From Harmothoe impar (Eukaryota; Annelida; Polychaeta; Phyllodocida; Polynoidae): a stretch of DNA of 64,000 nt. Under the pieces are notes generated by a model. It saw nothing but the letters and a program-made list of their open reading frames with translations. It was not told the origin of the DNA and searched no databases. The DNA is taken from contig OX381710.1 in assembly GCA_947462335.1 (NCBI GenBank), forward strand, positions 65,405,303-65,469,302. Reading direction: 5' to 3'. Below are positions 1-55,110 of the stretch, one piece after another. Position 1 is the first letter of the stretch, and each line of letters opens with the position of its first letter. The translations under genes and the position numbers were made by a program.

Positions 1-2
1 AG

Positions 3-10237: not shown

Positions 10238-10837
10238 CTACCAATAAAAGTTGTTTTAATGCCATTTGGGTTCCTCCTTGAGTATTATCTTTTAAACTTA
10301 GAAGTATCTGCAGTATGCACAACTGCTGTTTGTGACTAGAGCAGACAACTTAAATCCGAGTCACTTATATTGATGAGTCATACAGATACATGTTTTTCTA
10401 GACACCAATTCTTTTTGGGCTCTTTTTTTTTTGTCTTACAGCATCATATATGGCACAATAGACAAGAGTGAACACAATAAAGTTTGATGAATATATATTT
10501 TATTTCAACAATGCATGGGCATTTACATCACAGGTCTATTGCAAACCAGTCACAAATAGTGGTAGCTAATCTACAGTCTGCAGTGATAAATAAATAATAG
10601 ATGAATAAATTAACTACCGGTACAAGTCATTCATTCTGGTAAGGCAAGTCCACTCGAAATGAATCACAACAATATCAATCAATATGTCCAATATTTACTG
10701 ATATTTATCACTCCCAACAACATAATAACATTTGTTCTCCTTTATACATCAAGTGTTCACAAAATGGTATAAAAATCCTCATAAACATGTGCTAGACCCA
10801 GTTAGCAATGAACCAATGGATCATACCCAATGGAAAT

Positions 10838-13800
10838 TTATTTAGCTATGTTAATTTTGCGTGACTGTCTTGTTTTCTTCCGTTTTTTGGGGGGATGTTG
10901 AAGTTTATGCTCGGGAACATGAACAGGCTCACCCTTTAACTTTGGTAAAAGATAACTTGTGTAGAAAGTGTCAAGGCTGGCCTTGGCAACTTCCCAAAAA
11001 TCACGGTCAAAAGGCACACTCTGAACAGTAGTATCCTTTGGAGTCCACACAACAAAGTCACAAGTTTCAACTTTTAACAGTGCCATCTGTGCTTGGACCT
11101 GTGCGTAGTACTTGTGGGTCTTTTTCAGTTTTCCATCGCGGTTCAGGAAAGAAATGATACCACTCTGTGCCCCTTCTGTAGGCGTCAAGCCCTTCTTTGC
11201 AGCAGCATGTGGGCATTTAATCTCAAGAAGGCGTTTGGGCAAACAGGAACACACTGCAAAGCCATCAGGTGTAGCCCCTAGATGCGCATCTCCTGAAACA
11301 ATGTATTGTAATGTGGTTAGCACAAGATCCAATAATTAATCTGAAGACACTCCACAGTCGATTTTGATACAGATGTTGATATACATAGTTTGATAGACAT
11401 TTTCTAACATAGATTGCCCCCTAAGAAATATGGTACTATAAGGTTGACCCCATAACAGGCGTTTTATTGAAGGTGAAAGTTGAATGACTTAGATATCTAT
11501 CTGTTTACCTGTTGGAATTTTCAAGCCACAGCTCTTGACGATGAGGTCTCCGCAGCTGTGATTCTCAGTGTACTCATCCTTTGCGTCCTCTTCATGAGTG
11601 TTCCCCCATCGTATTGCGGCGATGCCACTCAGGTTTTGGTAGTCCCCCATGAGTTTTTTCATCAAGTAGTCAGGTGCATCTGGATTCTTGGACCGCATGA
11701 AACTACAAATTAAAATATTGAATCTCTTTAGTAACATGATAAGTGTGATCTAATCTAAATCCTACATGTAGAGAAGTGTTAGAAGTCATGGCTCTGATAC
11801 AAGTGTTGACCCTACCTAAGAGTCATTGACATTATTGCCAGCTGAACGTTCCTTTACTACCTGAGACACTTGGATGACTTTGATATATTTCTCAGTTTAG
11901 AGGCAAATTACTACCGGTAAACTTTATCCTACAAAATACTGATTCATATAGAAGTGTTTCCAATGCCTATGTGAGAATACAAATATGTCATGATGCTTTT
12001 AGTTTGTGTCAAGTTATTAAGTGGATAATCGCCAAGAATGATATCAATAACAATATCACCACAAAATACAGGGAATAAAACAAACGAAAAGATTTAATGT
12101 CAATGTAGTGATTTAAATTATACCTGAGCACATCTCCCATGTTGGAGGCAGTAATACGATTTCTTCTCAGATGGTGCCAATTTGAGTTTGCAGATTGACC
12201 TTTGGTTGAGCTGTAGATCAATGCACTCTGTTGGGCAGATACTGATGTGCGGACAGCCTCAAACACATTGTTTGGAGTTGAATTCTGCACAATCTTCTCG
12301 ATATCATCAGGGAAACTAGGTATGGTGTCAGTGGCGATGGGGATAGGCTCTACTACGGGATCAGCACCAATGGGTAGACCAGGGACCGATTCCACGTCAG
12401 CATCCATGGGGGTAGGGGCATTAAGGTCAAAAGGATCAATCTCTGAGGTCTCATAGTCTGTAATAAATGTAAAAGAAAATATCAATACAGGCCTAGATAG
12501 ACTGACACACACATCTTTTATAAATGCAATGTTGGCTACCAAATAGTTTGATTAGAGGCCATTTTGATCCTTGTTTATCTGAACCATTGGACTTACGGGT
12601 ATAATTATATAGGCTCTACAATTCTATCAGAATTCTTCAAATTGAATGATATTGCATAAACTCTATTTATAAATGAATTTACTACAGGTTCCGTGAAGTT
12701 AAAACTGTTTTAGGCAACATGGTTACACTAACTTTATATATATAACATATATATTCAGCCTCACGAAAAATGCTCCAGCATTTGTTTACAAATTAGATAA
12801 ATACACACCTATGTCAATTGTGAACTCCTCACAACGTGACGGATTCAAGAAGTGCAGTGCAACAGCCTCAGGGTTTGCTTCATGGAGCGCATCCCATGCA
12901 TCATCATCATCACTAGAGCTGCTACTACTGCAGCTCCATTTGCGAACAGGCCTCTTCCTTTTCCGTACCTGAAACAATGACAACATAAACTTGTATAATC
13001 ATTGTCAATATATTATTCAAAATTAAGCCATAATTGGTCAGCCTGAGTACCTCATTAGAAGTCATTAGTGAATCAATCTGTCAACCTTTTTGATTTGCCA
13101 AAATCCATGAATGCAGCACTGGTACATGTAATCACTATGACGTCATCTGATAGTGCTTATCAATTCTTTTATAATATTGTCTGTATATTCCTACCATAAT
13201 CTGTTATTCTTCATTCTATAGCACGTAGTGTGTTCCTCAAGGTAAAATTCTAACTTGCACAAATAAGAAATTATCCTAAAGCTCAACTCAAGTATGTTTC
13301 AATTGGAAATTTTGTAATATAAAAGCATTATCATAACAGATGTCCTACCTTGTTCAGTCTAGGTCGTCTGAAGTCCACCTTATTGATGAGTTCTGGCTTG
13401 ACCTCCTTCACAAAGGCATTATTCCACTCACAGGCTACACTAGTGCACGCATCAGGATGGTTGAGGTCTAGTTCAGCAGCCCCCATCATCTTAAAGAGAA
13501 TCGCTCCAACATGGCTGCATACTTCACCAAGCCTGGAATATAGACATTAATACACCACTTTATCTTGATTTAAGTATTATGATACTTTGTTTAAATTTGA
13601 ACTAGTGCTGTCATTTTCATGTTATGTCAATATATAAGTGACTAGCGGTATTTCATGTTATTACATGTAGTATGAAAATATAAAAGATGTACAAGTTATG
13701 GCTATTATTGAACTATAGCAATATAGATGTATTTTGATATAATCATTTCAATTATCAAGATTAATGTCTATACAGTAGATTTCTGTCAATTTAATATTGG

Positions 13801-14908
13801 GAGATGCTGTAATTGTATCTATAGATCAAAATATACTTGAAAAATAACAATAACCGTTATATTTATCATCATTGCAATACAAATTATCCTGGGAGGTCAT
13901 CACTTACCCTGCTGTACAGCAGCAGCGGCCTGCCTCGACCCTGCCAGTGTTTTGTACCATCACCCAGGCATCATAGCCTTCACCCTGGTGTTGTGACGGC
14001 TTTACCTTCGCCTTGACAAAGGTGATATCATCATTTGGCTTGTTCACATTAAGCTCTTGCACCCAGCCACAGACAGCATAATTGTATGATTCCAGACTCT
14101 TGTATGCATTTAGCTTTTCGTAAGTGATGCCTGTAATGAAAACAATAACATCATTAATTCATTGAATATTGTATAGTGGTTTTGCATACCTCTTTAAGGA
14201 TCTTCTGAGGGGGGGGGGCTAAAAAGTCACGACAATTCACCTCCCACTGTTGTAAAATAACAACTACTTATTTTGATATCAAATGGATTGGTCGATATGA
14301 AATAAGGCCCCAGATTCGGTTCATTTATAACATTCTCCTATTTAATAAACTAGGGGTCTACTCATAAGATTTGTACTGGATTTTAGTTTACTTTCAGTTT
14401 CAGTTTCGGGCCATGGTTTCCCTGCAATCAAACAAAAACAGAGCCTATAACAGTGAAACTCACCTTTCGTATTGATTAGGTAGTTGTAGATATCTCCATG
14501 TTTGATGGTCGGAACTTGCTTCAGGTCAGCCTTCCATTTTGTAACAGTACTGGGATCCGGAAGTGATTTTAGGAGAGTTTGGAGTTGTTTTGCTGCAAGT
14601 CTCTGTGTTATTACCTCATTAGGGTTAATAGGCAGGCCCATTTTCCATGTGAAGAAGGCTATCCTTACTAGATCCGCCTTGTTACTGTTCCCACTACGTA
14701 CTCCTCGAAGTCCAAGCCATTTCCGTAGCTTAGCCACTGTCCATTTCTGCAATTTCTGCCTCGTCTCATCATCCTCTGCAACTGGCAGGTGGTGCAAGGC
14801 ATCAGTGTATGCAATGAAGTTCCGATCTGAACTCATGGCTCTGCGAATATGATTTGCAATAGAAGCCAACCACCCATAATAAAGACATACCATGAACTGC
14901 TCAGACAT
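10838..14908 (-). CDS. SAP-SWIM-YqaJ nuclease of ISL2EU-like element, unit 1 (7 exons)
   Basis: Predicted DNA exonuclease/recombinase of the lambda-exonuclease fold, nuclear. Exons, reading the minus strand: 14908-14464, 14130-13908, 13532-13349, 12968-12809, 12457-12124, 11702-11509, 11292-10838. All introns are GT-AG and all phases join, giving 664 residues. SAP-like DNA-binding motif at 52-86; SWIM zinc finger with C218/C220 and C228-S-H230; basic then acidic segment (RKRKRPVRK, DDDD) at about 285-310; YqaJ nuclease with RITASNMGDVL (438-448), GNTHEEDA (482-489), GATPDG (D523) and LLEIKCP (E537, K539), the metal-binding D...E-x-K. C-terminal nuclear localisation signal PPKKRKK. The ATG at 14908 was chosen because upstream in-frame TTG/GTG codons are not eukaryotic starts. 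Divergent from the transposase. Confidence 0.88.
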
Positions 14909-16273
14909 GGTGATTAACTCCACACCTACGTGTTGAGCCAAAGTTTAGCGAATTCCGATGTAGGTGCGACAACTCAGGTGTGACAGCTTCCACTTCCAAT
15001 GCCAAAACTTTCACGCGGTGGCAGGTGGTGGGTGCATCCAGTGGTCGGGGAACAGATCAAAGAACTGCCGGCTTAGGACTACTGAGCGACGCACGTGTCA
15101 CAGTTAGGTGCGACTAGTGGTAAAACTGTTACTAACAGTAGTGGGATGGACGGTAGTCCCCCAACCCTTAAATGCATCCAAAAATCCCCATGATGGTGGC
15201 TATATTCGTCAACGATAACCTTAGCCTATCCAGTGACAAATTATGTTGATCTACATGGGATTAGCCTACGTCATGGTTCGATCTGGGTGGGATAGTGTGT
15301 CTTGAGGGGGAGATGATGGCAACTGTGTATTTTTTTATTGCTTAGAAAGCAAGCACCATTTACAGTATAAATTAGCTTGGGGGGTAAAGTTCAAGGGAAC
15401 GTTCAAGAATTATGTCACCGTTTTTGTCACCATTTGTCACCATTTAATTAGTAAATGTATGCCTGATCAAAAGACCCGCCCCCGCCCCTTACTGGTGACA
15501 AAATTGTTGAACTTGATTATTGGTCTGACCTCATGTCTACCCAGGGTGTAGCGACGTAACAGGCTGCACACTCCCCGACCCTACCCCCGGCCCTACCCTG
15601 ACCTCAGTCCAGCACCAAGGGCGGCAGCGGCCCTCTCCCACCCGGTGCTCCCCTCACGGCTGGGCCGACCATGGTCACAGTGCATCACACTGGCTTCTGT
15701 CGGTCTGAGCGATAATAGGTATATTATATGTGCTAACTAATTAGCTGAAGGAAATTTCTTGTGATTTCAACCCATAGACTGTAGTAAACATCTGTTTTCA
15801 TACGTAGTATATTACACATAATGTTTATGGATAATAGCTAAACACAGGTGACCATTGCAAATAGACTTCACAGAGAGCGTCATGGACTCAATGACCCCTC
15901 GATCTGTGCAGTGTACACCTTTGCGTAGTTCCAGATTAGCTCACCAGGTGGCGATACTGGATGCGCCAATGTCCTTACAAGTGCTTAGGCGAATGGCTCC
16001 AGTGAGTGCAGCCATGGTGGCGCGAGATTTTGCGTGGCTAGGGGACAGGCGTCTCGTTTGACGCTGGTTCTCGCCTCACCTCACTGAGCGAATGTGACCA
16101 GCGAAAGTGGCGCGGAAAGCTAGGTCACTTGAATATCAACAGCACTTGAGTACGGCAGTCAGTGGTGACGGGTCTGTCCCGCACTCACAGCATTCACCCA
16201 GAAATCTTATCAGCGTTTTTGCTACTTATACCTACTACGGGATTACCAACTATGGAATAGCATCTGCCACAAT
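14909..16273. promoter_or_regulatory. Shared divergent control region between nuclease and transposase genes (unit 1)
   Basis: 1,365 bp between the two ATGs. It contains a GC-rich block at about 15570-15680, three GTCACC words at 15414-15446, and a CpG-rich stretch at 15990-16120 with E2F-like words (GGCGCGGAAA, GGCGCGAG) shortly before the transposase start. No TATA box is obvious. Equivalent regions are 27751-29098 (unit 2), 41201-42565 (unit 3) and 54044-55110 (unit 4, truncated). A frame at 15855-16061 in unit 1 is closed in other units and is not taken as a gene. Confidence 0.5.
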
Positions 16274-19200
16274 ATGACACGTCATTGTATAGTAAGTGAC
16301 TGTAACACAGACTCCAGGTATCATCCTGGGGCAAAGTTTTACAAGTTCCCCCTCGAGTTAGAAATTCGGAAACAGTGGATATCGAATGTGAATCGGGAAG
16401 GGAAGGATGACAAACTGTGGCAGCCAAAGACTGATGATTCGGTGTGCTACAAGCACTTTGTTGACGGGGAGCCTACAACAATACACCCAGTTCCTGAGCT
16501 CAACATGGGCCACATATTTGTTACCAAAGTAGTAGGACGTCGGACCATCAACAAATGCAATTCTCCTTCCCCAAGTCGTCCAAAGGCAAAGATCAGGGGG
16601 AAAGAAAACAAACCTGGTAAGTAGGCATAAAACCTGGGGAAGATCTTGCAGTGTGGGTCAGTGAGAATCAACCGGGGTCCCAGCTGTTCTGTTCCCTGTC
16701 CCGGCTAGGGCATGCCAGTTACACCTGGCTGGGTTGTAGCTTGGTCACGCCGCCTCACAGGCCTGACTGGGGTCGTCATGGGTAGGTGTTTATCATGATA
16801 GTCAGTTTAATAGGGGGATTAGGGAGTGCTCATGTTTTAACAAGAGGATGGCTCCCAACCGGGGGTCTCTGTGTTAATTGTCTATTTTAAGAAATGTCAA
16901 TGTCCCATGTCGATTTAAAAAAAGTATTGTCCCTATTAAATCGCCAGTCATCTTGTCGTGGGGGGGGTGAATAAAAAATGTTATCTGCTCGGGGGGGGGG
17001 GGGCAAAACAATTCGATCCCATGATGGGGGGGGGGGGGGTAAAAAATGTTAATTGCTCTGGGGGGGGGGGAATAATTTCACTTGTTTTCCGTGAAAAAGC
17101 CTGGTTGTTATTTATGATTCAAAGGGCTCAGATGCGGGCTTGAGTGGGGGGGGGGGGGGAATACGACCCTTTGACTGGGGCAATAAGAACAACTGTGCAT
17201 GCTTCAAGCAAAAAACCCATACCATAGACTATAATTATAATTCATAGACTATGTATAGAATGCAACCCATTTGTATCAAATTAACCGGTCGGACCCACTG
17301 CCACGTTGGAAGGCCTATAGTTTTCAGAATATCCATCAACTTTCTGCGACTATCTGGGAGTGTTAAGCCTATCTAGCCTAATGTTTCTGAGAAGCTCAAA
17401 AAACTATAGTGTATTAAGACATTTTTAAGTTTCACGTGTTTCTTCTTCAAAATTCCAGTTTCCTGTACGCAGCCCAAAGCCCAGTATGGCAGACCAAGAG
17501 TACTTCTACCTACTATCCAACCAGAGGTGCAGATGTCATCAGTTGCTGTACCCCCTGGTTGTGATCAGTCCATTACAAATCAGGATGTCACACCAGCAGA
17601 AGAAACTCTCATGGACTTCAGGCTATGCATGGACATCAATCTGTCTCCAGAACAACGTATGTGATCTTTTCAAATAAGCTACCGTAATGGCCCGTATAAG
17701 CGCAGGGGTCTCAAATAAGCACAGGTCTCGTTTAAGAGCAGGTCTAGGACCCCTCTGAAACCCAAAATCTCAAAAGGGACTCATATAAGCGCAGGTCCCT
17801 GTACAAGTGCTGGGGTTAATAGGGTCTTGAGATTTATAAGTGCATGTATATGCGCTGATGAGGTCATATTCTCTCTTTACAATAAGCTAGGTACTTTAAG
17901 TCAAGTAGGAATGCAGATCTGTGATGGATTTTTTTGTAGTCCCTTTTGTTGTATCAATAGTTTAATATGATACAGCTGTTGTTTCTTAATATTCACATAG
18001 TAAACTCAATGAAAACCTATTTTTGTGATTCATTACTGATTCAGTCCATCTAAGTGATACATATGTGTGAAATTGAATTAAACAATATTCTCTCGTTGTC
18101 CATGTTGCAGTGTCAGGTGTGCCCTTCCACGTACCTATGCTGTCAGAGATCTTGAGAGTCCCGCACTCAACATTGCAGCAGGTTGTAATACCATCAGTAC
18201 ATCATACAGCTCAACCCACAACACACCCCAGAGTAACACCTCCCTTTCAGACTGATATGGAAGTAGACCCGTCACAGATGATTTCAAGAAATGAAAAACT
18301 GAGCACAGGTAATTATTTTTGTTCTCAGTACCAATAAATCTCAGTTGGTGTCCGGATATCAAGCCCTGTCCAGGTTCAGCTCCTAGACGATAAGTCCACT
18401 GATATCCAGCCATCTCTGGCTTGTAGCTGGATGTTGGGTGGCAGGATGTTGGGTTGGATGAACGTTGGGTAGATGGACATTTTATTCGAGATAGGAAGGG
18501 TTGTGTGAAAGTAGCAGAACTAATCGTGCTATAACCTTGCTTTTGGATTGGATGTTGCATTGGGAAGAGAGTTCTATGGCCAATATTCCAAAGGGCCTAT
18601 ATTCAGGGTGCCTATCATCAGGTGGCCAAAAATCTAAAGGGCTTGCAGTCAGGGGGCCAGTTGTGCTGGTGGGCATCAGTCACGAGGCCCTGGAACTGAG
18701 ACTTCCAAGTCATGTTACCAAATCATACAGATGGTTTTACACTATGGCAGAACATAGTCTGTTACGAGAATATCATGATATTTTGTGTTCAAATTCCAGT
18801 TCCATGCTGTGCAGCCAATCCTCATACAGTCGGTGATATTGCTACAGACCAAGACCCACCGATCAAGAGCATGGAGAAAACAGGTACAATCACCATTGTT
18901 GTATCTTATCACCATTGATGAATCTTATAACTATATTGACATTAACTTCATCTCTAGTTTATCAATATCTAGCAACTTCTCGTTGATTAATTAAACATAA
19001 TTTCCTCATAATTTGGTTAATAAATCATGGACACATTTATAGTAGTGTTAATTTCCACGTACAATCCTAACTCACATAATTCTATAGGCTGCATCTTAAC
19101 TTTGACAAAGTCTTTAAGCTACATAGGGGAACTGAAAATTACTGACTTATGATTAATGTACTAGCTGTGGCTTCTACACAAGAATTTACGGTATTTAATA

Positions 19201-22200
19201 GTTTGATTTGGCTCAGAAATTGAAATCTTATGTGTCATTTATATTCTAAAATATCAGCCCAAAATGGTGTGTGTGCTAATTATGTTAAAATAGATAATTT
19301 AGTTTTATGCTTTCTGTTTTATTTCTATACACTTAAAATGTTCTGCTTCTGATTAATTGCCCTGCCACTCAGATGCTGAAACCTGGCTTAAGACTTCACT
19401 GGCCTTCCACAGTTATTCAAAGCGGGAGAATGATTCTGGTGAGTGACATTCTGTACATTTCCGTTTAGGGAGTGGTCATTAAAATTATAATAATGAGTGG
19501 TGATCAAACTTCTTAGAGGTGCAAAAAACCTTAATGCCCACCCCCCTCTAGAGTGTGGAATAGCTCGGTCCCTACCATATAGTGTTATAATATATATTTA
19601 CTTTTCCCCCCGCATATCTTTCTAAATAGACCCCCTTTCAACTGTTTTAATCTGGCCTGTCAAAGATGTCACCCGGTCAAAAACGTCACCCGGTCAAAGA
19701 CTATCCAATTGTTACAATGTCATCAGACACAGCCCAGAGCTTTTGTGTGGGTGCTTCTCATTTTGTTCCGCCAAGATCTATTAATCATTAATGGTGCCAA
19801 CCATTCTGAATTTGAACATGTCAAAACCAATAATTTATTTCTTATTTTTGACATTTTTAGAAGTTGCTGATGAACAGATGAGTAAAAAGATAAAATCTCT
19901 AGAGCAGGAGCTACACAAAACAAAAGCCTTGCTGAAGTCACAAACACGTCGCTTCTCACATAAGGTGCTTGTAGGAAATGACAAAAGAACCAGGTAAGTT
20001 CATTTCTAGTTCTCAACAAAAATCTTTGGCATCGTCAATACCCATGTCGTAAGGTCTTGAGAATCAAACCCAGTTTTATTATGATAACAAATATGCCAAG
20101 CAAGGACAATGTGTAGCCTGCCGAACCACCTCCCTGCTGAGATTCTTTCTGAGATAATTCTATTTATCAAATCATTTTCTAAAGACCAGATCATGCTGTC
20201 TGTCTTTAAAGCTTTTCTTGTGGTTCTTACCGATATTTCTATTGACCATTTATTAATGTAAATCGTTTGACTTCAGACAATTTACTGGCTTCCCAAGTTA
20301 CAAGTGCTTTATCACGATATTCGAAAAACGCATACAACCAAAGGCAAAACGGCTCACCACCAACCACAGACCTGGTCGCATACATTGGCACAAGTCAACC
20401 TTCCACAAAAAGCTAGGTCGGACTAGAGCTCTGGCCCTTGTGGATGAGTTTCTGCTTGTGATGATGCGGCTACGCAAAAACCCGACCATCTCCGACCTTG
20501 CAGAACGCTTTGGCATCTCTGATTACCAGGCATCCCGAATCATCTCACGCTGGTTGCCATTCTTGGCTAGGTGCTTTCGGAAGTACCTTAAAAACCCAAC
20601 GAAAGAGCTGGTGAGTATCTATATACTCTTAAAAGATCAACATGATGCATTAAAGCACAATGTGGCCCTTAATGGGTTGATTTCATTGCGTTGATTTCAT
20701 TGCCAGTTGTCTGATTCATTATCATATTCTGATGATCATTGGGGTCAGGGTAACCCAGTAAACAAAAAACGTAATACAACATTTTATAACGTTATATAGC
20801 GTTTGCCTAAGGCTCTTTACTGTGGCAAACTGTTATATAACGCCTAAAACGTTTTTTTGACGTAAAATAATGTGTTTTTTTTGTTAGCTGGGAATGTTGT
20901 CAGCAGCTTCTATGATAGGGCGTCGATATGCTTTGTTGTATTGGTATTATAAATCGGCAGTGCGGCATTCATGCATGCTACAGACCAGACAGGGATAATA
21001 CATATGAGTATTATGCACCAACATTGATGGTTTCTCACGAGCATTGTTTATAGACAACATGACATTCATGAATGGGTTAGTAAACCTTAGTTATATTATG
21101 CATGATATACATATATTAAGGATTATATTTTTCAGGTGCAGAAGTACATGCCTGAGTCCTTCAGGAAGAAGTATCCAAACACACGGGTAATAATAGACTG
21201 TTTTGAGGTCTTTATTGAACGCCCTACCATTCTACTTGGCCGTCAACAAACGTGGTCCAGTTACAAGCACCACAACACCGCGAAGGTGTTAGTGGGTGTT
21301 TCTCCAGAAGGGGGGTTCACCTTTGTAGGTGCTGCTTGGGGAGGTCGGACTTCTGACAAGCACATTGTGAAGTATTCAGGTAAGCACTCCTTGCTCAATA
21401 AGTTTTTCTGGACAACGTTTGGCACGTATAGGGCCTAATTTTAGAATGTTCGCACTGAAATTATTTGTCATGAACCATAAAGGGGCCCTTGATGGGGGGG
21501 TCCCCATGTCGCATGTCGGTTTTAAGAAATGACCATGTCGTATGTCTATGTCGCTTAAAATGCTCATGTCCCATGTCAATTTAAGAAATGTCCATGTCCC
21601 CTGTCACAAAGCCTCATGTCGCATGTCACTAGGCCTCATGTCGCATGTCGATTTTAAGAAATGCCCATGGCGCCATATCGAATTTAGGGGAGGGGTCTAG
21701 AGCCATCATAAAAACTATCAAAACAGTAACAAAAAAGAGGGGAAACCGCCACTTTTTCGCTAAACCTGGTCAGGTGACCAGAAACATTTTTTGTGCCTAA
21801 TTGGCGTTAGTGAAGAAGGCAGGATCGGGTTGTGTTATTATCTATTTAAGTAAAAGTGGCTAGGGGAAACCCTTAAAAGTGATTTTGTTTTATCAAAACA
21901 GGATTCCTCGATACACTGGAGCCTTACGACGAGGTCATGGCCGACAGAGGTTTTACAGTCACTGCTGAACTTGCAGAACTGTGCTGTAGACTCAATACAC
22001 CTCCTTTCACCCAGGGAAAGACCCAACTGAGCCGTGGCGAGGTACAAACACATCGTAATATCTCAACCTTAAGGATCCATGTGGAGAGGGCCATAGAGCG
22101 AATCAAAAAGTTCCAGATACTTAAGGGTGTCTTTCTACTGAACCAAATCCACCACTTCAATGACATTGTAACAATCTGTGCCGCAGTTGTTAATATGTGG

Positions 22201-22254
22201 AAGCCTATCGTTGTAAATCCAGCAGAAATTGACGAAAATGACCTCCATGTGTAG
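16274..22254 (+). CDS. THAP-DDE transposase of ISL2EU-like element, unit 1 (9 exons)
   Basis: Predicted cut-and-paste transposase, nuclear. Exons: 16274-16616, 17459-17656, 18111-18308, 18800-18883, 19373-19438, 19861-19993, 20277-20610, 21136-21379, 21902-22254. All borders are GT-AG and all phases join, giving 650 residues. An N-terminal THAP zinc domain (C5, C10, C58, H61, with HPVPELN near its end) should bind element DNA. A disordered Pro/Thr linker follows, then a coiled coil (exon 6), an HTH of the HTH_Tnp_4 type ([15 protein letters not shown], exon 7), and a DDE_Tnp_4 domain with [17 protein letters not shown] (D473), MADRGF (D548) and [10 protein letters not shown] (E595). Unit 1 has a 3-residue deletion after the FYKFP motif relative to unit 3. 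A HARBI1-like label is the usual database alternative. Confidence 0.88.
16959..17159 (+). repeat. Poly-G runs in transposase intron 1
   Basis: Five G-runs of roughly 8 to 14 bases at about 16960, 16991, 17026, 17060 and 17146, separated by a partly repeated spacer (AAAAAATGTTA, TGCTC). Run lengths differ between units 1, 2 and 3, as expected for slippage-prone tracts. On the non-template strand they could form G-quadruplexes. Counterparts lie at about 29777-29968 and 43260-43459. Confidence 0.7.
17683..17830 (+). repeat. Dispersed repeat with TATAAGCGCAGG words (intron 2, unit 1)
   Basis: The words TATAAGCGCAGGGGT, AAATAAGCACAGGTC and TATAAGCGCAGGTCC recur within 150 bp. The same family appears outside the array at 62241-62360 (GTATAAGGGCAGGGG, AAATAAGCGCCTG), so this is an interspersed genomic repeat and not element-specific coding or control DNA. 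Confidence 0.5.
20790..20842. repeat. Imperfect hairpin in transposase intron 7
   Basis: Left arm CGTTATATAGCGTTTGCC at 20790-20807 pairs imperfectly with 20824-20842 (GGCAAAC...TATAACG). Further AACGTTTT-type words flank it, suggesting a degraded foldback element about 120 bp long. Units 2 and 3 carry changes in the left arm. Confidence 0.5.
21503..21670 (+). repeat. CATGTCGCATGTCG minisatellite-like block in transposase intron 8
   Basis: Irregular repeats of CATGTCGCATGTCG followed by a TTTTAAGAAATG spacer. A related single copy sits in intron 1 near 16890-16920. Present also in units 2 and 3 (about 34312-34480 and 47805-47970). Confidence 0.65.
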
Positions 22255-42565: not shown

Positions 42566-45500
42566 ATGACACGTCATTGTATAGTAAGTGACTGTAACAC
42601 AGACTCCAGGTATCATCCTGGGGCAAAGTTTTACAAGTTCCCCCGTTCGACCAAGAAGTTAGAAATTCGGAAACAGTGGATATCGAATGTGAATCGGGAA
42701 GGGAAGGATGACAAACTGTGGCAGCCAAAGACTGATGATTCGGTGTGCTACAAGCACTTTGTTGACGGGGAGCCTACAACAATACACCCAGTTCCTGAGC
42801 TCAACATGGGCCACATATTTGTTACCAAAGTAGTAGGACGTCGGACCATCAACAAACGCAATTCTCCTTCCCCAAGTCGTCCAAAGGCAAAGATCAGGGG
42901 GAAAGAAAACAAACCTGGTAAGTAGGCATAAAACCTGGGGAAGATCTTGCAGTGTGGGTCAGTGAGAATCAACCGGGGTCCCAGCTGTTCTGTTCCCTGT
43001 CCCGGCTAGGGCATGCCAGTTACACCTGGCTGGGTTGTAGCTTGGTCACGCCGCCTCACAGGCCTTACTGGGGTTGTCATGGGTAGGTGTTTATCATGAT
43101 AGTCAGTTTAATAGGGGGATTAGGGAGTGCTCATGTTTTAACAAGAGGATGGCTCCCGACCGGGGGTCTCTGTGTTAATTGTCTATTTTAAGAAATGTCA
43201 ATGTCCCATGTCGATTTAAAAAAAGTATTGTCCCTATTAAATCGCCAGTCATCTTGTCGTGGGGGGGGTGAATAAAAAATGTTATCTGCTCGGGGGGGGG
43301 GGGGGGCAAAACAATTCGATCCCATGATGGGGGGGGGTAAAAAAATGTTAATTGCTCTGGGGGGGGGGGGGAATAATTTCACTTGTTTTCCGTGAAAAAG
43401 CCTGGTTGTTATTTATGATTCAAAGGGCTCAGATGCGGGCTTGAGTGGGGGGGGGGGGGATTACGACCCTTTGACTGGGGCAATAAGAACAACTGTGCAT
43501 GCTTCAAGCAAAAAATCCATACCTTAGACTATAATTATAATTCATAGACTATGTATAGAATGCAACCCATTTGTATCAAATTAACCGGTCGGACCCACTG
43601 CCACGTTGGAAGGCCTATAGTTTTCAGAATATCCATCAACTTTCTGCGACTATCTGGGAGTGTTAAGCCTATCTAGCCTAATGTTTCTGAGAAGCTCAAA
43701 AAACTATAGTGTATTAAGACATTTTAAAGTTTCATATGTTTCTTCTTCAAAATTCCAGTTTCCTGTACGCAGCCCAAAGCCCAGTATGGCAGACCAAGAG
43801 TACTTCTACCTACTATCCAACCAGAGGTGCAGATGTCATCAGTTGCTGTACCCCCTGGTTGTGATCAGTCCATTACAAATCAGGATGTCACACCAGCAGA
43901 AGAAACTCTCATGGACTTCAGGCTATGCATGGACATCAATCTGTCTCCAGAACAACGTATGTGATCTTTTCAAATAAGCTACCGTAATGGCCTGTATAAG
44001 CGCAGGGGTCTCAAATAAGCACAGGTCTCGTTTAAGAGCAGGTCTAGGACCCCTCTGAAACCCAAAATCTCAAAAGGGACTCATATAAGCGCAGGTCCCT
44101 GTACAAGTGCTGGGGTTAATAGGGTCTTGAGATTTATAAGTGCATGTGTATGCGCTAATGAGGTCATATTCTCTCTTTACAATAAGCTAGGTACTTTAAG
44201 TCAAGTAGGAATGCAGATCTGTGATGGATTTTTTTGTAGTCCCTTTTGTTGTATCAATAGTTTAATATGATACAGCTGTTGTTTCTTAATATTCACATAG
44301 TAAACTCAATGAAAACCTATTTTTGTGATTCATTACTGATTCAGTCCATCTAAGTGATACATATGTGTGAAATTGAATTAAACAATATTCTCTCGTTGTC
44401 CATGTTGCAGTGTCAGGTGTGCCCTTCCACGTACCTATGCTGTCAGAGATCTTGAGAGTCCCGCACTCAACATTGCAGCAGGTTGTAATACCATCAGTAC
44501 ATCATACAGCTCAACCCACAACACACCCCAGAGTAACACCTCCCTTTCAGACTGATATGGAAGTAGACCCGTCACAGATCATTTCAAGAAATGAAAAACT
44601 GAGCACAGGTAATTATTTTTGTTCTCAGTACCAATAAATCTCAGTTGGTGTCCGGATATCAAGCCCTGTCCAGGTTCAGCTCCCAGACGATAAGTCCACT
44701 GATATCCAGCCATCTCTGGCTTGTAGCTGCATGTTGGGTGGCAGGATGTTGGGTTGGATGAACGTTGGGTAGATGGACATTTTATTCGAGAGAGGAAGGG
44801 TTGTGTGAAAGTAGCAGAACTAATCGTGCTATAACCTTGCTTTTGGATTGGATGTTGCATTGGGAAGAGAGTTCTATGGCCAATATTCCAAAGGGCCTAT
44901 ATTCAGGGTGCCTATCATCAGGTGGCCAAAAATCTAAAGGGCTTGCAGTCAGGGGGCCAGTTGTGCTGGTGGGCATCAGTCACGAGGCCCTGGAACTGAG
45001 ACTTCCAAGTCATGTTACCAAATCATACAGATGGTTTTACACTATGGCAGAACATAGTCTGTTACGAGAATATCATGATATTTTGTGTTCAAATTCCAGT
45101 TCCATGCTGTGCAGCCAATCCTCATACAGTCGGTGATATTGCTACAGACCAAGACCCACCGATCAAGAGCATGGAGAAAATAGGTACAATCACCATTGTT
45201 GTATCTTATCACCATTGATGAATCTTATAACTATATTGACATTAACTTCATCTCTAGTTTATCAATATCTAGCAACTTCTCGTTGATTAATTAAACATAA
45301 TTTCCTCATAATTTGGTTAATAAATCATGGACACATTTATAGTAGTGTTAATTTCCACGTACAATCCTAACTCACATAATTCTATAGGCTGCATCTTAAC
45401 TTTGACAAAGTCTTTAAGCTACATAGGGGAACTGAAAATTACTGACTTATGATTAATGTACTAGCTGTGGCTTCTACACAAGAATTTACGGTATCTAATA

Positions 45501-48500
45501 GTTTGATTTGGCTCAGAAATTGAAATCTTATGTGTCATTTATATTCTAAAATATCAGCCCAAAACGGTGTGTGTGCTAATTATGTTAAAATAGATAATTT
45601 AGTTTTATGCTTTCTGTTTTATTTCTATACACTTAAAATGTTCTGCTTCTGATTAATTGCCCTGCCACTCAGATGCTGAAACCTGGCTTAAGACTTCACT
45701 GGCCTTCCACAGTTATTCAAAGCGGGAGAATGATTCTGGTGAGTGACATTCTGTACATTTCCGTTTAGGGAGTGGTCATTAAAATTATAATAATGAGTGG
45801 TGATCAAATTTCTTAGAGGTGCAAAAAACCTTAATGCCCACCCCCCTCTAGAGTGTGGAATAGCTCGGTCCCTACCATATAGTGTTATAATATATATTTA
45901 CTTTTCCCCCCGCATATCTTTCTAAATAGACCCCCTTTCAACTGTTTTAATCTGGCCTGTCAAAGATGTCACCCGGTCAAAAACGTCACCCGGTCAAAGA
46001 CTATCCAATTGTTACAATGTCATCAGACACAGCCCAGAGCTTTTATGTGGGTGCTTCTCATTTTGTTCCGCCAAGATCTATTAATCATTAATGGTGCCAA
46101 CCATTCTGAATTTGAACATGTCAAAACCAATAATTTATTTCTTATTTTTGACATTTTTAGAAGTTGCTGATGAACAGATGAGTAAAAAGATAAAATCTCT
46201 AGAGCAGGAGCTACACAAAACAAAAGCCTTGCTGAAGTCACAAACACGTCGCTTCTCACATAAGGTGCTTGTAGGAAATGACAAAAGAACCAGGTAAGTT
46301 CATTTCTAGTTCTCAACAAAAATCTTTGGCATCGTCAATACCCATGTCGTAAGGTCTTGAGAATCAAACCCAGTTTTATTATGATAACAAATATGCCAAG
46401 CAAGGACAATGTGTAGCCTGCCGAACCACCTCCCTGCTGAGATTCTTTCTGAGATAATTCTATTTATTAAATCATTTTCTAAAGACCAGATCATGCTGAC
46501 TGTCTTTAAAGCTTTTCTTGTGGTTCCTACCGGTATTTCTATTGACCATTTATTAATGTATATCGTTTGACTTCAGACAATTTACTGGCTTCCCAAGTTA
46601 CAAGTGCTTTATCACGATATTCGAAAAACGCATACAACCAAAGGCAAAACGGCTCACCACCAACCACAGACCTGGTCGCATACATTGGCACAAGTCAACC
46701 TTCCACAAAAAGCCAGGTCGGACTAGAGCTCTGGCCCTTGTGGATGAGTTTCTGCTTGTGATGATGTGGCTACGCAAAAACCCGACCATCTCCGACCTTG
46801 CAGAACGCTTTGGCATCTCTGATTACCAGGCATCCCGAATCATCTCACGCTGGTTGCCATTCTTGGCTAGGTGCTTTCGGAAGTACCTTAAAAACCCAAC
46901 GAAAGAGCTGGTGAGTATCTATATACTCTTAAAAGATCAACATGATGCATTAAAGCACAATGTGGCCCTTAATGGGTTGATTTCATTGCGTTGATTTCAT
47001 TGCCAGTTGTCTGATTCATTATCATATTCTGATGATCATTGGGGTCAGGGTAACCCAGTAAACAAAAAACGTAATACAACATTTTATAACGTTATATAGC
47101 GTTTCTCTAAGGCTCTTTACTGTGGAAAACTGTTATATAACACCTAAAACGTTTTTTTGACGTAAAATAATGTGTTTTTTTTTGTTAGCTGGGAATGTTG
47201 TCAGCAGCTTCTATGATAGGGAGTCGATATGCTTTGTTGCATTGGTATTATAAATCGGCAGTGCGGCATTCATGCATGCTACAGACCAGACAGGGATAAT
47301 ACATATGAGTATTATGCACCAACATTGATGGTTTCTCACGAGCATTGTTTATAGACAACATGACATTCATGAATGGGTTAGTAAACCCTTAGTTATATTA
47401 TGCATGATATACATATATTAAGGATTATATTTTTCAGGTGCAGAAGTACATGCCTGAGTCCTTCAGGAAGAAGTATCCAAACACACGGGTAATAATAGAC
47501 TGTTTTGAGGTCTTTATTGAACGCCCTACCATTCTACTTGCCCGTCAACAAACGTGGTCCAGTTACAAGCACCACAACACCGCGAAGGTGTTAGTGGGTG
47601 TTTCTCCAGAAGGGGGGTTCACCTTTGTAGGTGCTGCTTGGGGAGGTCGGACTTCTGACAAGCACATTGTGAAGTATTCAGGTAAGCACTCCTTGCTCAA
47701 TAAGTTTTTCTGGACAACGTTTGGCACGTATAGGGCCTAATTTTAGAATGTTCGCACTGAAATTATTTGTCATGAACCATAAAGGGGCCCTTGATGGAGG
47801 GGTCCCCATGTCGCATGTCGGTTTTAAGAAATGACCATGTCGTATGTCTATGTTGCTTAAAATGCTCATGTCCCATGTCAATTTACGAAATGTCCATGTC
47901 CCCTGTCACAAAGCCTCATGTCGTATGTCACTAGGCCTCATGTCGCATGTCGATTTTAAGAAATGCCCATGGCGCCATATCGAATTTAGGGGAGGGGTCT
48001 AGAGCCATCATAAAAACTATCAAAACAGTAACAAAAAAGAGGGGAAACCGCCACTTTTTCGCTAAACCTGGTCAGGTGACAGGAAACATTTTTTGTGCCT
48101 AATTGGCGTTAGTGAAGAAGGCAGGATCGGGTTGTGTTATTATCTATTTAAGTAAAAGTGGCTAGGGGAAACCCTTAAAAGTGATTTTGTTTTATCAAAA
48201 CAGGATTCCTCGATACACTGGAGCCTTACGACGAGGTCATGGCCGACAGAGGTTTTACAGTCACTGCTGAACTTGCAGAGCTGTGCTGTAGACTCAATAC
48301 ACCTCCTTTCACCCAGGGTAAGACCCAACTGAGCCGTGGCGAGGTACAAACACATCGTAATATCTCAACCTTAAGGATCCATGTGGAGAGGGCCATAGAG
48401 CGAATCAAAAGGTTCCAGATACTTAAGGGTGTCTTTCTACTGAACCAAATCCACCACTTCAATGACATTGTAACAATCTGTGCCGCAGTTGTTAATATGT

Positions 48501-48556
48501 GGAAGCCTATCGTTGTAAATCCAGCAGAAATTGACGAAAATGACCTCCATGTGTAG
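42566..48556 (+). CDS. THAP-DDE transposase, unit 3 (9 exons, longest open copy)
   Basis: Exons: 42566-42917, 43759-43956, 44411-44608, 45100-45183, 45673-45738, 46161-46293, 46577-46910, 47438-47681, 48204-48556. All borders are GT-AG and phases join, giving 653 residues. The THAP segment after FYKFP is complete here (RSTKK), unlike unit 1. Catalytic Asp, Asp and Glu are intact. One notable change is Arg to Trp just before the HTH (MMWLRKNP against MMRLRKNP). Divergent from its own nuclease gene. Confidence 0.87.
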
Positions 48557-48712
48557 TAAGAAAATGTGATGTCATGCTGCATAGTGTGCTTTGAGCACTA
48601 CCGGTACTTGTGATAAAGAATCAATTGTTTTAATGATTGTTTTAAATTGCTTTTCAGTATAGATTCCGTTTTCCTGTCTTTTGGGATTTCTGATTTTAAT
48701 CTTGTGATTTAA

Positions 48713-49171
48713 GCCCTTTAGGGCCAGCGTAATGAATGAACGCACCATAGTCATTTTTCTTAAGATGCAGCTCTGGAGATAAACTGACAAATTCTGTATT
48801 GATTGATACACCTCCCAAGAATCCCAATGCAGTACCAGGGATTTACTCACCACAGCTACATTCATGTTTCATGAAGACAAAGGACGGGCATAGCACATTT
48901 ACACTTCATGCTATTCTCAGATAATTATTTTCTACATAGATTGGCAAAACCTACTTTTTCCAACTTTTTATTGGAGTGGAACCTGCGATATTATTGATTT
49001 TTTTAAGACATAATATTGACCATGAATCGTGTAGCTAGTTGAATGTTGGAAAGGGACATATTTTACAGGTGTACATATATGTCTATGCACTGATGTGTTG
49101 GATGTTGTATTGATGTATGCATCACGCTGGAGCTACGGGACTGACAAATGCCAGAGGCCATCCTTAAAGGG
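48713..49171. mobile_element. piggyBac-like MITE, unit 3
   Basis: Third copy of the MITE at the same relative position, TTAA at 48709-48712 and 49172-49175, left end GCCCTTTAGGGCC as in unit 2. Confidence 0.45.
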
Positions 49172-49314
49172 TTAACATGACTACTGTTTGCTTCGCATTT
49201 TCCTGTATATCATTTGCAATGAATTGATATCAATTATGCATATATAATGACCTTATAAATAATGTGATGATTTACAATATCGGCTTTAAATTTGAGACTT
49301 CATTACATGATATG

Positions 49315-52300
49315 CTACCAATAAAAGTTGTTTTAATGCCATTTGGGTTCCTCCTTGAGTATTATCTTTTAAACTTAGAAGTATCTGCAGTATGCACAAC
49401 TGCTGTTTGTGACTAGAGCAGACAACTTAAATCCGAGTCACTTATATTGATGAGTCATACAGATACATGTTTTTCTAGACACCAATTCTTTTTGGGCTCT
49501 TTTTTTTTTGTCTTACAGCATCATATATGGCACAATAGACAAGAGTGAACACAATAAAGTTTGATGAATATATATTTTATTTCAACAATGCATGGGCATT
49601 TACATCACAGGTCTATTGCAAACCAGTCACAAATAGTGGTAGCTAATCTACAGTCTGCAGTGATAAATAAATAATAGATGAATAAATTAACTACCGGTAC
49701 AAGTCATTCATTCTGGTAAGGCAAGTCCACTCGAAATGAATCACAACAATATCAATCAATATGTCCAATATTTACTGATATTTATCACTCCCAACAACAT
49801 AATAACATTTGTTCTCCTTTATACATCAAGTGTTCACAAAATGGTATAAAAATCCTCATAAACATGTGCTAGACCCAGTTAGCAATGAACCAATAGATCA
49901 TACCCAATGGAAATTTATTTAGCTATGTTAATTTTGCGTGACTGTCTTGTTTTCTTCCGTTTTTTGGGGGGATGTTGAAGTTTATGCTCGGGAACATGAA
50001 CAGGCTCACCCTTTAACTTTGGTAAAAGATAACTTGTGTAGAAAGTGTCAAGGCTGGCCTTGGCAACTTCCCAAAAATCACGGTCAAAAGGCACACTCTG
50101 AACAGTAGTATCCTTTGGAGTCCACACAACAAAGTCACAAGTTTCAACTTTTAACAGTGCCATCTGTGCTTGGACCTGTGCGTAGTACTTGTGGGTCTTT
50201 TTCAGTTTTCCATCGCGGTTCAGGAAAGAAATGATACCACTCTGTGCCCCTTCTGTAGGCGTCAAGCCCTTCTCTGCAGCAGCATGTGGGCATTTAATCT
50301 CAAGAAGGCGTTTGGGCAAACAGGAACACACTGCAAAGCCATCAGGTGTAGCCCCTAGATGCGCATCTCCTGAAACAATGTATTGTAATGTGGTTAGCAC
50401 AAGATCCAATAATTAATCTGAAGACACTCCACAGTCGATTTTGATACAGATGTTGATATACATAGTTTGATAGACATTTTCTAACATAGATTGCCCCCTA
50501 AGAAATATGGTACTATAAGGTTGACCCCATAACAGGCGTTTTATTGAAGGTGAAAGTTGAATGACTTAGATATCTATCTGTTTACCTGTTGGAATTTTCA
50601 AGCCACAGTTCTTGACGATGAGGTCTCCGCAGCTGTGATTCTCAGTGTACTCATCCTTTGCGTCCTCTTCATGAGTGTTCCCCCATCGTATTGCGGCAAT
50701 GCCACTCAGGTTTTGGTAGTCCCCCATGAGTTTTTTCATCAAGTAGTCAGGTGCATCTGGATTCTTGGACCGCATGAAACTACAAATTAAAGTATTGAAT
50801 CTCTTTAGTAACATGATAAGTGTGATCTTATCTAAATCCTACATGTAGAGAAGTGTTAGAAGTCATGGCTCTGATACAAGTGTTGACCCTACCTAAGAGT
50901 CATTGACATTATTGCCAGCTGAACGTTCCTTTACTATCTGAGACACTTGGATGACTTTGATACATTTCTCAGTTTAGAGGCAAATTACTACCGGTAAACT
51001 TTATCCTACAAAATACTGATTCATATAGAAGTGTTTCCAATGCCTATGTGAGAATACAAATATGTCATGATGCTTTTAGTTTGTGTCAAGTTATTAAGTG
51101 GATAATCGCCAAGAATGATATCAATAACAATATCACCACAAAATACAGGGAATAAAACAAACGAAAAGATTTAATGTCAATGTAGTGATTTAAATTATAC
51201 CTGAGCACATCTCCCATGTTGGAGGCAGTAATACGATTTCTTCTCAGATGGTGCCAATTTGAGTTTGCAGATTGACCTTTGGTTGAGCTGTAGATCAATG
51301 CAGATACTGATGTGCGGACAGCCTCAAACACATTGTTTGGAGTTGAATTCTGCACAATCTTCTCGATATCATCAGGGAAACTAGGTATGGTGTCAGTGGC
51401 GATGGGGATAGGCTCTACTACGGGATCAGCACCAATGGGTAGACCAGGGACCGATTCCACGTCAGCATCCATGGGGGTAGGGGCATTAAGGTCAAAAGGA
51501 TCAATTTCTGAGGTCTCATAGTCTGTAATAAATGTAAAAGAAAATATCAATACAGGCCTAGATAGACTGACACACACATCTTTTATGAATGCAATGTTGG
51601 CTACCAAATAGTTTGATTAGAGGCCATTTTGATCCTTGTTTATCTGAACCATTGGACTTATGGGTATAATTATATAGGCTCTACAATTCTATCAGAATTC
51701 TTCAAATTGAATGATATTGCATAAACTCTATTTATAAATGAATTTACTACAGGTTCCGTGAAGTTAAAACTGTTTTAGGCAACATGGTTACACTAACTTT
51801 ATATATATAACATATATATTCAGCCTCACGAAAAATGCTCCAGCATTTGTTTACAAATTAGATAAATACACACCTATGTCAATTGTGAACTCCTCACAAC
51901 GTGACGGATTCAAGAAGTGCAGTGCAACAGCCTCAGGGTTTGCTTCATGGAGCGCATCCCATGCATCATCATCATCACTAGAGCTGCTACTACTGCAGCT
52001 CCATTTGCGAACAGGCCTCTTCCTTTTCCGTACCTGAAACAATGACAACATAAACTTGTATAATCATTGTCAATATATTATTCAAAATTAAGCCATAATT
52101 GGTCAGCCTGAGTACCTCATTAGAAGTCATTGGTGAATCAATCTGTCAACCTTTTTGATTTGCCAAAATCCATGAATGCAGCACTGGTACATGTAATCAC
52201 TATGACGTCATCTGATAGTGCTTATCAATTCTTTTATGATATTGTCTGTATATATTCCTACCATAATCTGTTATTCTTCATTCTATATCATAGACTGTGA

Positions 52301-55110
52301 AAAAAACATCTCCCTGATCAGACTAATATATACTTTACGGGGAAATCCCCTGGAAACACGTAGTGTGTTCCTCAAGGTAAAATTCTAACTTGCACAAATA
52401 AGAAATTATCCTAAAGCTCAACTCAAGTATGTTTCAATTGGAAATTTTGTAATATAAAAGCATTATCATAACAGATGTCCTACCTTGTTCAGTCTAGGTC
52501 GTCTGGAGTCCACCTTATTGATGAGTTCTGGCTTGACCTCCTTCACAAAGGCATTATTCCACTCACAGGCTACACTAGTGCACGCATCAGGATGGTTGAG
52601 GTCTAGTTCAGCAGCCCCCATCATCTTAAAGAGAATCGCTCCAACATGGCTGCATACTTCACCAAGCCTGGAATATAGACATTAATACACCACTTTATAT
52701 TGATTTAAGTATTATGATACTTTGTTTAAATTTGAACTAGTGCTGTCATTTTCATGTTATGTCAATATATAAGTGACTAGCGGTATTTCATGTTATTACA
52801 TGTAGTATGAAAATATAAAAGATGTACAAGTTATGGCTATTATTGAACTATAGCAATATAGATGTATTTTGATATAATCATTTCAATTATCAAGATTAAT
52901 GTCTATACAGTAGATTTCTGTCAATTTAATATTGGGAGATGCTGTAATTGTATCTATAGATCAAAATATACTTGAAAAATAACAATAACCATTATATTTA
53001 TCATCATTGCAATACAAATTATCCTGGGAGGTCATCACTTACCCTGCTGTACAGCAGCAGCGGCCTGCCTCGACCCTGCCAGTGTTTTGTACCATCACCC
53101 AGGCATCATAGCCTTCACCCACGTGTTGTGACGGCTTTACCTTCGCCTTGACAAAGGTGATATCATCATTTGGCTTGTTCACATTAAGCTCTTGCACCCA
53201 GCCACAGACAGCATAATTGTATGATTCCAGACTCTTGTATGCATTTAGCTTTTCATGAGTGATGCCTGTAATGAAAACAATAACATCATTAATTCATTGA
53301 ATATTGTATAGTGGTTTTGCATACCTCTTTAAGGATCTTCTGAGGGGGGGGGGCTAAAAAGTCACGACAATTCACCTCCCACTGTTGTAAAATAACAACT
53401 ACTTATTTTGATATCAAATGGATTGGTCGATATGAAATAAGGCCCCAGATTCGGTTCATTTATAACATTCTCCTATTTAATAAACTAGGGGTCTACTCAT
53501 AAGATTTGTACTGGATTTTAGTTTACTTTCAGTTTCAGTTTCGGGCCATGGTTTCCCTGCAATCAAACAAAAACACAGCCTATAACAGTGAAACTCACCT
53601 TTCGTATTGATTAGGTAGTTGTAGATATCTCCATGTTTGATGGTCGGAACTTGCTTCAGGTCAGCCTTCCATTTTGTAACAGTACTGGGATCCGGAAGTG
53701 ATTTTAGGAGAGTTTGGAGTCGTTTTGCTGCAAGTCTCTGTGTTATTACCTCATTAGGGTTAATAGGCAGGCCCATTTTCCATGTGAAGAAGGCTATCCT
53801 TACTAGATCCGCCTTGTTACTGTTCCCACTACGTACTCCTCGAAGTCCAAGCCATTTCCGTAGCTTAGCCACTGTCCATTTCTGCAATTTCTGCCTCGTC
53901 TCATCATCCTCTGCAACTGGCAGGTGGTGCAAGGCATCAGTGTATGCAATGAAGTTCCGATCTGAACTCATGGCTCTGCGAATATGATTTGCAATAGAAG
54001 CCAACCACCTATAATAAAGACATACCATGAACTGCTCAGACATGGTGATTAACTCCACACCTACGTGTTGAGCCAAAGTTTAGCGAATTCCGATGTAGGT
54101 GCGACAACTCAGGTGTGACAGCTTCCACTTCCAATGCCAAAACTTTCATGCGGCGGCAGGTGGTGGGTGCATCCAGTGGTCGGGGAACAGATCAAAGAAC
54201 TGCCGGCTTAGGACTACTGAGCGACGCACGTGTCACAGTTAGGTGCGACTAGTGGTAAAACTGTTACTAACAGTAGTGGGATGGGCGGTAGTCCCCCAAC
54301 CCTTAAATGCATCCAAAAATCCCCATGATGGTGGCTATATTCGTCAACGATAACCTTAGCCTATCCAGTGACAAATTATGTTGATCTACATGGGATTAGC
54401 CTACGTCATGGTTCGATCTGGGTGGGATAATGTGTCTTGAGGGGGAGATGATGGCAACTGTGTATTTTTTTATTGCTTAGAAAGCAAGCACCATTTACAG
54501 TATAAATTAGCTTGGGGGGTAAAGTTCAAGGGAACGTTCAAGAATTATGTCACCGTTTTTGTCACCATTTGTCACCATTTAATTAGTAAATGTATGCCTG
54601 ATCAAAAGACCCGCCCCCGCCCCTTACTGGTGACAAAATTGTTGAACTTGATTATTGGTCTGACCTCATGTCTACCCAGGGTGTAGCGACGTAACAGGCT
54701 GCACACTCCCCGACCCTACCCCCGGCCCTACCCTGACCTCAGTCCAGCACCAAGGGCGGCAGCGGCCCTCTCCCACCCGGTGCTCCCCTCACGGCTGGGC
54801 CGACCATGGTCACAGTGCATCACACTGGCTTCTGTCGGTCTGAGCGATAATAGGTATATTATATGTGCTAACTAATTAGCTGAAGGAAATTTCTTGTGAT
54901 TTCAACCCATAGACTGTAGTAAACATCTGTTTTCATACGTAGTATATTACACATAATGTTTATGGATAATAGCTAAACACAGGTGACCATTGCAAATAGA
55001 CTTCACAGAGAGCGTCATGGACTCAATGACCCCTCGATCTGTGCAGTGTACACCTTTGCGTAGTTCCAGATTAGCTCACCAGGTGGCGATACTGGATGCG
55101 CCAATGTCCT
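49315..55110. mobile_element. Tandem unit 4, truncated (5,796 bp; nuclease half only)
   Basis: Follows unit 3 directly. Similarity stops after position 55110, which corresponds to 15975 in unit 1, inside the region between the two divergent genes. The whole nuclease gene and about 1.07 kb of its upstream region are retained, but no transposase. The sequence right of the break is the LINE region. Confidence 0.88.
49915..54043 (-). CDS. SAP-SWIM-YqaJ nuclease, unit 4 (7 exons)
   Basis: Exons: 54043-53599, 53265-53043, 52667-52484, 52033-51874, 51522-51201, 50779-50586, 50369-49915. Carries the same 12-bp exon 5 deletion as unit 3 (660 residues). Catalytic residues are intact; one Lys to Glu change (AAAEKGL) lies next to the EIKCP motif. 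This unit has lost the transposase half, so the nuclease stands without its divergent partner but keeps about 1 kb of upstream DNA. Confidence 0.86.

Follow-up and report, generated by a model that had tools for sequence, protein, structure and literature searches.

One step in the origin of satellite DNA that is still open is how a cut-and-paste transposon comes to form a tandem array in the first place, and this is the question raised by a locus of the polychaete Harmothoe impar (assembly GCA_947462335.1). An original prediction, made from the letters of one stretch of DNA alone, had described there 3.45 head-to-tail units of an ISL2EU-like transposon. The window analysed here is that whole stretch, 64,000 nucleotides of contig OX381710.1 (C7:65405303-65469302), and positions below are counted from its first letter unless a contig is named; the genome searched comprises 1.51 Gb in 736 contigs. 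With 20 kb to the left of the window added, the array was found to span C7:65394791-65460411 and to consist of four whole units, A to D, arranged head to tail, so that the direct array was borne out but its copy number was not, as the array runs left beyond the window and all four units are complete. The array is real in this assembly and looks genuine.

Self-BLAST recovered direct repeats at the predicted coordinates, with 98.8-99.7% identity over long matches, but the unit register had to be moved. The predicted start at 10238 is the end of a long terminal repeat (LTR) retrotransposon inserted in unit A; at 23012/23013, 35821/35822 and 49314/49315 the other units show the corresponding site without the insertion, and these places are not boundaries. 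The true unit is about 12.8 kb long (Table 1), and each of the four starts with GTGCTTAGG and ends with CCAATGTCC. Both outer edges and all three joints fall at one unit coordinate, with spacers of 6 bp between units (4 bp in an alternative parse) where the prediction had seen no intervening DNA. The left end is intact at all three joints, and edges and joints differ by one base per side; the joint GTCC-TTATAA-GTGC is one A apart from what would result if the left flank and end (TTATA-GTGC) were fused to the right end.

The surroundings of the block are equally legible. The left edge adjoins the preceding part of the same high-copy repeat that is found at the right edge, where the start of a long interspersed nuclear element (LINE) had been considered and was ruled out once this repeat was found. 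When the two flanks were joined with a single TATA, they gave a gapless 208-bp alignment, at 96.2-97.1% identity, to 11 of the 11 split-repeat copies compared, these being the best-ranked of 40 scored among 1325 candidates, the array's own excluded. Judged from these alignments, the block looks like one insertion into the high-copy repeat with one target duplication around the entire array, a feature that had been taken to be absent. The duplication is TATA if the element is read as GTGC...GTCC, and AT if it is read as AGTGC...GTCCT, a parse common to joints and edges in which the flanks read T-AT-A.

The four units all differ from one another. Pairwise substitution distances are 0.47-0.70% in the true register (0.38-0.72% in the predicted one), the closest pair being the neighbours C and D (0.47%), and each unit carries private substitutions (30, 42, 27 and 27 sites in A to D). 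A and B are set apart from C and D by 16 substitutions, a 12-bp deletion and a 2-bp indel, which are distributed over most of the unit; four sites conflict with this split. The private indels originally described all exist; the 68-bp difference in predicted unit 1 has the size given, the deletion in predicted unit 2 amounts to 17 alignment columns and not 16 bp, and the miniature inverted-repeat transposable element (MITE) of predicted unit 3 lies within a private 650-column insertion.

Within the true unit the transposase gene (plus strand) and the YqaJ exonuclease gene (minus strand) are convergent, and the divergent arrangement originally proposed straddles a joint. The transposase has THAP (5.4e-10), HTH_Tnp_4 (3.9e-15) and DDE_Tnp_4 (4.8e-46) domains, all above cut-offs, which together with the YqaJ partner gene upholds the ISL2EU-like identity; residues D451, D526 and E573, invariant in 14 of 14 aligned sequences, are putatively catalytic. 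The partner protein has a YqaJ domain (2.8e-18) and a SAP match under the cut-off, as well as a CxC...CxH stretch that we take to resemble a SWIM finger. The gene models, built from open frames and splice signals and not from transcripts, have 8 exons each, with GT/AG at all 14 introns. YqaJ is open in the four units, and the transposase in B and D, being out of frame in A and C. Array divergence is similar in coding (0.49-0.79%) and noncoding (0.32-0.69%) DNA. Variable codons are 17 nonsynonymous and 7 synonymous among the four YqaJ copies (p 0.82) and 9 and 2 between the two open transposases (p 0.74), against a neutral nonsynonymous share of 0.74 for both; nothing in these small numbers suggests selection on either gene since duplication. 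Among the 120 of 725 transposase matches listed, the closest came from the acorn worms Ptychodera flava and Glandiceps talaboti (54% identity).

Table 1. Features of the array and its immediate surroundings, in window positions.
Feature	Position	Strand	Remarks
LTR retrotransposon in unit A (Gypsy-type in our reading)	1..10237	+	left part beyond window; 3' LTR 9799-10237
CTAC target duplication of the LTR element, 3' copy	10238..10241	+	
Unit A, right part	10242..15974	+	left part beyond window, C7:65394791-65401836; unit 12,779 bp without LTR element
YqaJ gene, unit A	10838..14944	-	8 exons, open; 5' limit is the open-frame start
Joint A/B, TTACAA	15975..15980	+	
Unit B	15981..28799	+	12,819 bp
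Transposase gene, unit B	16274..22254	+	8 exons, open; compared with A, C and D, THAP exon has a 9-bp in-frame gap
Dispersed repeat, transposase intron of unit B	21477..21712		query stretch containing it matches all four units
YqaJ gene, unit B	23611..27786	-	open
Joint B/C, TTATAA	28800..28805	+	
Unit C	28806..42266	+	13,461 bp including MITE
Transposase gene, unit C	29099..35063	+	frame lost in exon 1
YqaJ gene, unit C	36422..41236	-	open; 12-bp in-frame deletion in common with D
MITE, unit C only	36968..37615		inverted ends CAGT...ACTG, TA on both sides; in YqaJ intron
Joint C/D, TTATAA	42267..42272	+	
Unit D	42273..55109	+	12,837 bp
Transposase gene, unit D	42566..48556	+	8 exons, open
YqaJ gene, unit D	49915..54079	-	open
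Outer target duplication, right copy, TATA (nested parse AT)	55110..55113	+	left copy ends at C7:65394790
Portion of high-copy repeat split by the array	55110..55295	+	

The MITE, found only in C, and the LTR element, found only in A, arrived after the units had formed. The two LTRs are 439 bp each without a single difference, CTAC precedes the 5' LTR and follows the 3' LTR, and the element has protease, reverse transcriptase, RNase H and integrase domains, a set that we read as Gypsy-type; it is young. A first placement of the 3' LTR at 9345-10234 was replaced by that of Table 1 after comparison with the 5' LTR. The element also includes a perfect 1,007-bp direct repeat (6303-7309 and 7324-8330, 14 bp apart), which may have been duplicated recently or may have come from misassembly, and the MITE contains an 80-bp unit in 4.5 copies (37092-37451). 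Self-BLAST (E up to 1e-20) gave no further direct repeats in the unit beyond the array period and the MITE's own.

For the three parts of the unit that were searched (13300-15300, 21000-23012 and 15400-16273), the genome gave no other copy at high identity. Each of the first two has four copies at 98-100%, all in the array. The other four matches of 13300-15300 are 123-231 bp long at 67-75% identity, and the other 43 of 21000-23012 (best 40 of 3325 candidates scored) are due to a dispersed repeat, about 230 bp long, in a transposase intron. The joint region was recovered genome-wide at the three joints, at the right edge (query to 15975) and at the left edge (query from 15980), and its only further match is 90 bp at 79% on C12, which resembles the stretch around 15419/15494. 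The search for single copies that the prediction had proposed thus turned up none elsewhere for these parts, and the outer target duplication was identified at the array itself.

More distant relatives were reached through the weaker matches of 13300-15300. Loci on C11, C14, C18 and C21 have one transposase and one YqaJ gene each, convergent in all four, and the convergent order is therefore the usual one. For C11, C18 and C21, the ratio of nonsynonymous to synonymous substitution rates (dN/dS) over three transposase exons is 0.04-0.07, with no stops, which fits an active transposon lineage or host-adopted genes alike; comparisons with C14 and with the array were saturated. Homology among the C11, C18 and C21 loci becomes faint close to the start of YqaJ. 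At the ends of the four loci, that on C18 lacking most of its left flank, no convincing inverted repeats were found: there were seven candidates with 17-18 of 20 matches in two of the four, none AT-flanked on both sides. Between the convergent genes at C11, C18 and C21 lie minisatellite arrays, with an offset of about 66 bp on C11 and C18. The transposase gave 73 matches in the genome, 54 of them outside the array (70 of 197 candidates scored); one, C20:11957999-11959033, matches residues 272-616 at 60% in a single frame of 927 codons, without the introns of the array gene in that part. Viral contigs showed no relatives of either gene, and prokaryote contigs a single one, the 3.6-kb JAAXGN010000095.1 of a Poribacteria genome bin, with a convergent gene pair, which is probably animal DNA in the wrong bin.

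A second array was found on C6, where, in 26 kb examined, two units of 6,246 bp (80984332-80990577 and 80990578-80996823) form a head-to-tail dimer. Its genes are convergent as well and, relative to the C7 array, the transposase is 43% and YqaJ 28-31% identical, so it is a different ISL2EU-like family. The ends are inverted repeats, AACCTATGTGCGAGTA and AACCCGTGTGCGAGTA, which match at 14 of 16 positions by eye and start with AA. The outer flanks, GACA-AT and AT-TGAT, fit the ISL2EU target A-AT-T as read from the flanks alone, and the joint reads GGGTT-ATT-AACC. The two units are 99.92% identical, with 2 substitutions and single-base indels, and this near identity leaves misassembly more open there. 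On C11 two stretches at 60933201 and 60958164, about 25 kb apart, are 99.95% identical over 8 kb that include an ISL2EU-like transposase, with no YqaJ match in either stretch compared (9 and 8 kb). This pair (C11:60930601-60963600) was considered as an array and set aside, as the match fills nearly all of both stretches and it is probably a plain segmental duplication.

We think it somewhat probable that the C7 array arose from one ISL2EU-like insertion that was duplicated at its own ends and then expanded stepwise in place. A transposon of about 12.8 kb would have inserted into the high-copy repeat, duplicating TATA (or AT), and in a first duplication the right end of one copy would have been joined to the left end of another, a few bp from the transposon ends. 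This could have happened if the transposase cut at an end and the break was repaired on or off the sister chromatid, or if excised copies were joined; unequal exchange between the long repeats could have supplied the further units. On C7 as on C6, the units are joined at the transposon ends, and the spacer there, 3-6 bp, is close to but not identical with the outer duplication; arbitrary breakpoints would be unlikely to have produced this twice. Several observations weigh on the other side. The cut-and-repair step is something we infer, as are the order in which things happened and whatever part the YqaJ protein may play; the split between A/B and C/D is unrooted, so the first events cannot be ordered; the C7 target is T-AT-A and not the A-AT-T reported for ISL2EU; and the joints differ from what the C7 insertion site would simply yield. 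In addition, the terminal inverted repeats on C7 are weak (local alignment, p 0.57 over 60 bp and 0.92 over 200 bp; alignment anchored at the ends with a 4-bp gap, p 0.014 over 24 bp and 0.042 over 30 bp), and an inverted repeat of 17 of 19 positions at 15419/15494, away from the unit ends, is not accounted for by this reading.

That repeat was tried as the transposon ends and dropped, since the array edges and joints sit at 15974/15981. Its length-19 version was reached in 0 of 40 shuffles and a 14-base version in 5 of 40. It lies inside the right end of every unit, starts with GGTGACA and has extra TGTCACC copies beside it. Over the divergent interval as a whole there were 11 overlapping inverted-repeat matches, where five shuffles gave 0-5; for the convergent interval (22252-23620) five shuffles gave 3-24, and the 16 matches found there amount to nothing.

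Much of the same evidence could be read differently. If a circle or excised copies had been ligated head to tail beforehand and the multimer inserted once by its outermost ends, this would accommodate the single target duplication around the whole C7 block, the TTATAA and TTACAA joints and the C6 joint, which is not a plain shared AT either, and a circular-transposon model of this kind has been put forward for Bari1 (PMC8834629). We nevertheless hold such a concatemer to be rather unlikely: the units are unequally distant, the 0.47% between C and D and the 16 substitutions and two indels in common point to at least one later duplication or conversion, and neither a circle nor a donor site was seen. 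A broader proposal would start from the two families of one genome that each form arrays joined at their own ends, with the target duplication on the outside only: ISL2EU-type transposons would then make head-to-tail concatemers regularly, as a by-product or even as a way of replicating, perhaps through circular or linear multimers handled by their own YqaJ nuclease. This is speculative and in our opinion unlikely. Phages and herpesviruses have nucleases related to YqaJ, which they use on their own DNA.

The array might also be a domesticated, ISL2EU-derived pair of host genes that was duplicated in tandem, its transposon-like edges being old or accidental. The 8 exons of both genes, the weak inverted repeats and the low dN/dS at three related loci, with no stops in the exons compared, would suit such a pair. 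It is made improbable by edges and joints that share one unit coordinate, by a flanking duplication with empty-site copies, by coding divergence close to noncoding, neutral variable codons and the loss of two of four transposase frames, and by the poor prospect of arbitrary breakpoints hitting transposon ends twice, on C7 and on C6. Long tandem repeats are difficult to assemble, our evidence is assembly sequence, and the C6 dimer is 99.92% identical, all of which would be in keeping with a shorter locus duplicated by misassembly or haplotype joining. For C7 we judge this very improbable. The original prediction had argued against assembly duplication from private indels, and the case is now stronger, with private substitutions in all four units, the LTR element and the MITE present once each, and no N bases in the window or in three flanking stretches; moreover, the closest units, C and D, are adjacent, and not A with C and B with D, a pattern at odds with the joining of two haplotypes of a shorter locus one after the other.

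To the right of the array the window contains a LINE (55702-59514) with an endonuclease and reverse-transcriptase frame at 56674-59514; the frame preceding it has only a weak GDSL-like match (E 0.03). Two short minus-strand frames, 62430-62567 and 63818-64000, resemble in their motifs a multicopper-oxidase exon and an adenain-like protease, respectively; in Pfam neither had a match above cut-off.

ISL2EU belongs to the PHIS (Harbinger-like) group and combines a THAP/HTH/DDE transposase with a YqaJ protein (PMC4482050, PMC9179366); its target duplication is described as AT in A-AT-T (PMC4482050), its inverted repeats usually start with GG, and the autonomous consensus averages about 4.84 kb (PMC4482050, PMC9179366). 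The C7 and C6 elements are like it in having both genes, an animal host and AT as a possible duplication, and the C6 flanks fit its target. They are unlike it in length, with units of 12.8 and 6.2 kb, although 4.84 kb is an average and not a criterion, and the C7 element also differs in its weak inverted repeats, its target and its head-to-tail array, and in an unclear GG start, which the right end shows in one parse and the left end does not. Neither PMC4482050 nor PMC9179366 uses the word 'tandem' in its main text, PMC9587614 lists ISL2EU among superfamilies, and in the open-access literature we found no case of an ISL2EU head-to-tail array, which may be described elsewhere.

Bari1, a Tc1-like transposon of Drosophila melanogaster, has dispersed copies elsewhere in its genome. 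It also forms two clusters, one of about 80 copies in heterochromatin and another of six; the array copies each lack the first two bases, concatemers from a circular transposon have been proposed, and the review in question speaks of no comparable described example for its case (PMC8834629). The precise head-to-tail joining of whole cut-and-paste elements and the altered end bases at internal copies are alike in Bari1 and on C7, and a retrotransposon nested in the Bari1 array is listed among the references of PMC8834629. Bari1 is, however, a one-gene element of another superfamily, and on C7 the first two bases are not missing. KolobokP, a nuclease-encoding DNA transposon, forms multimers with target duplications at the outer ends only, and its long terminal direct repeats, common to neighbours, can drive unequal crossover (PMC9587614). 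The outer duplication and a nuclease gene are found on C7 too, but no long terminal direct repeats were seen there, so that a different origin is required for the first dimer.

Double insertions and tandem transposon dimers have been regarded as starting points from which satellites grow (McGurk and Barbash 2018, as cited in PMC12368964 and PMC9659126), and the present units resemble them as class II head-to-tail copies that can be expanded by unequal exchange. A double insertion sharing one duplication was nonetheless rejected for C7, as it predicts a 4-bp TATA joint, and TTATAA or TTACAA was found. In maize, reversed-ends transposition of Ac/Ds yields tandem direct duplications (PMC4270019), another instance of transposase generating them by acting on ends, although there flanking DNA is duplicated through the ends of two elements and here the element itself is the unit. 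The C7 array offers ends, joints and outer duplication that can all be read, without long terminal direct repeats as an explanation, and a similar dimer exists in a second family of this genome, so that the origin of such arrays can be put to the test, and with it the function of the YqaJ gene, left open in the PHIS paper. The second dimer is also a hint that elements of this kind are able to pile up where they have inserted.

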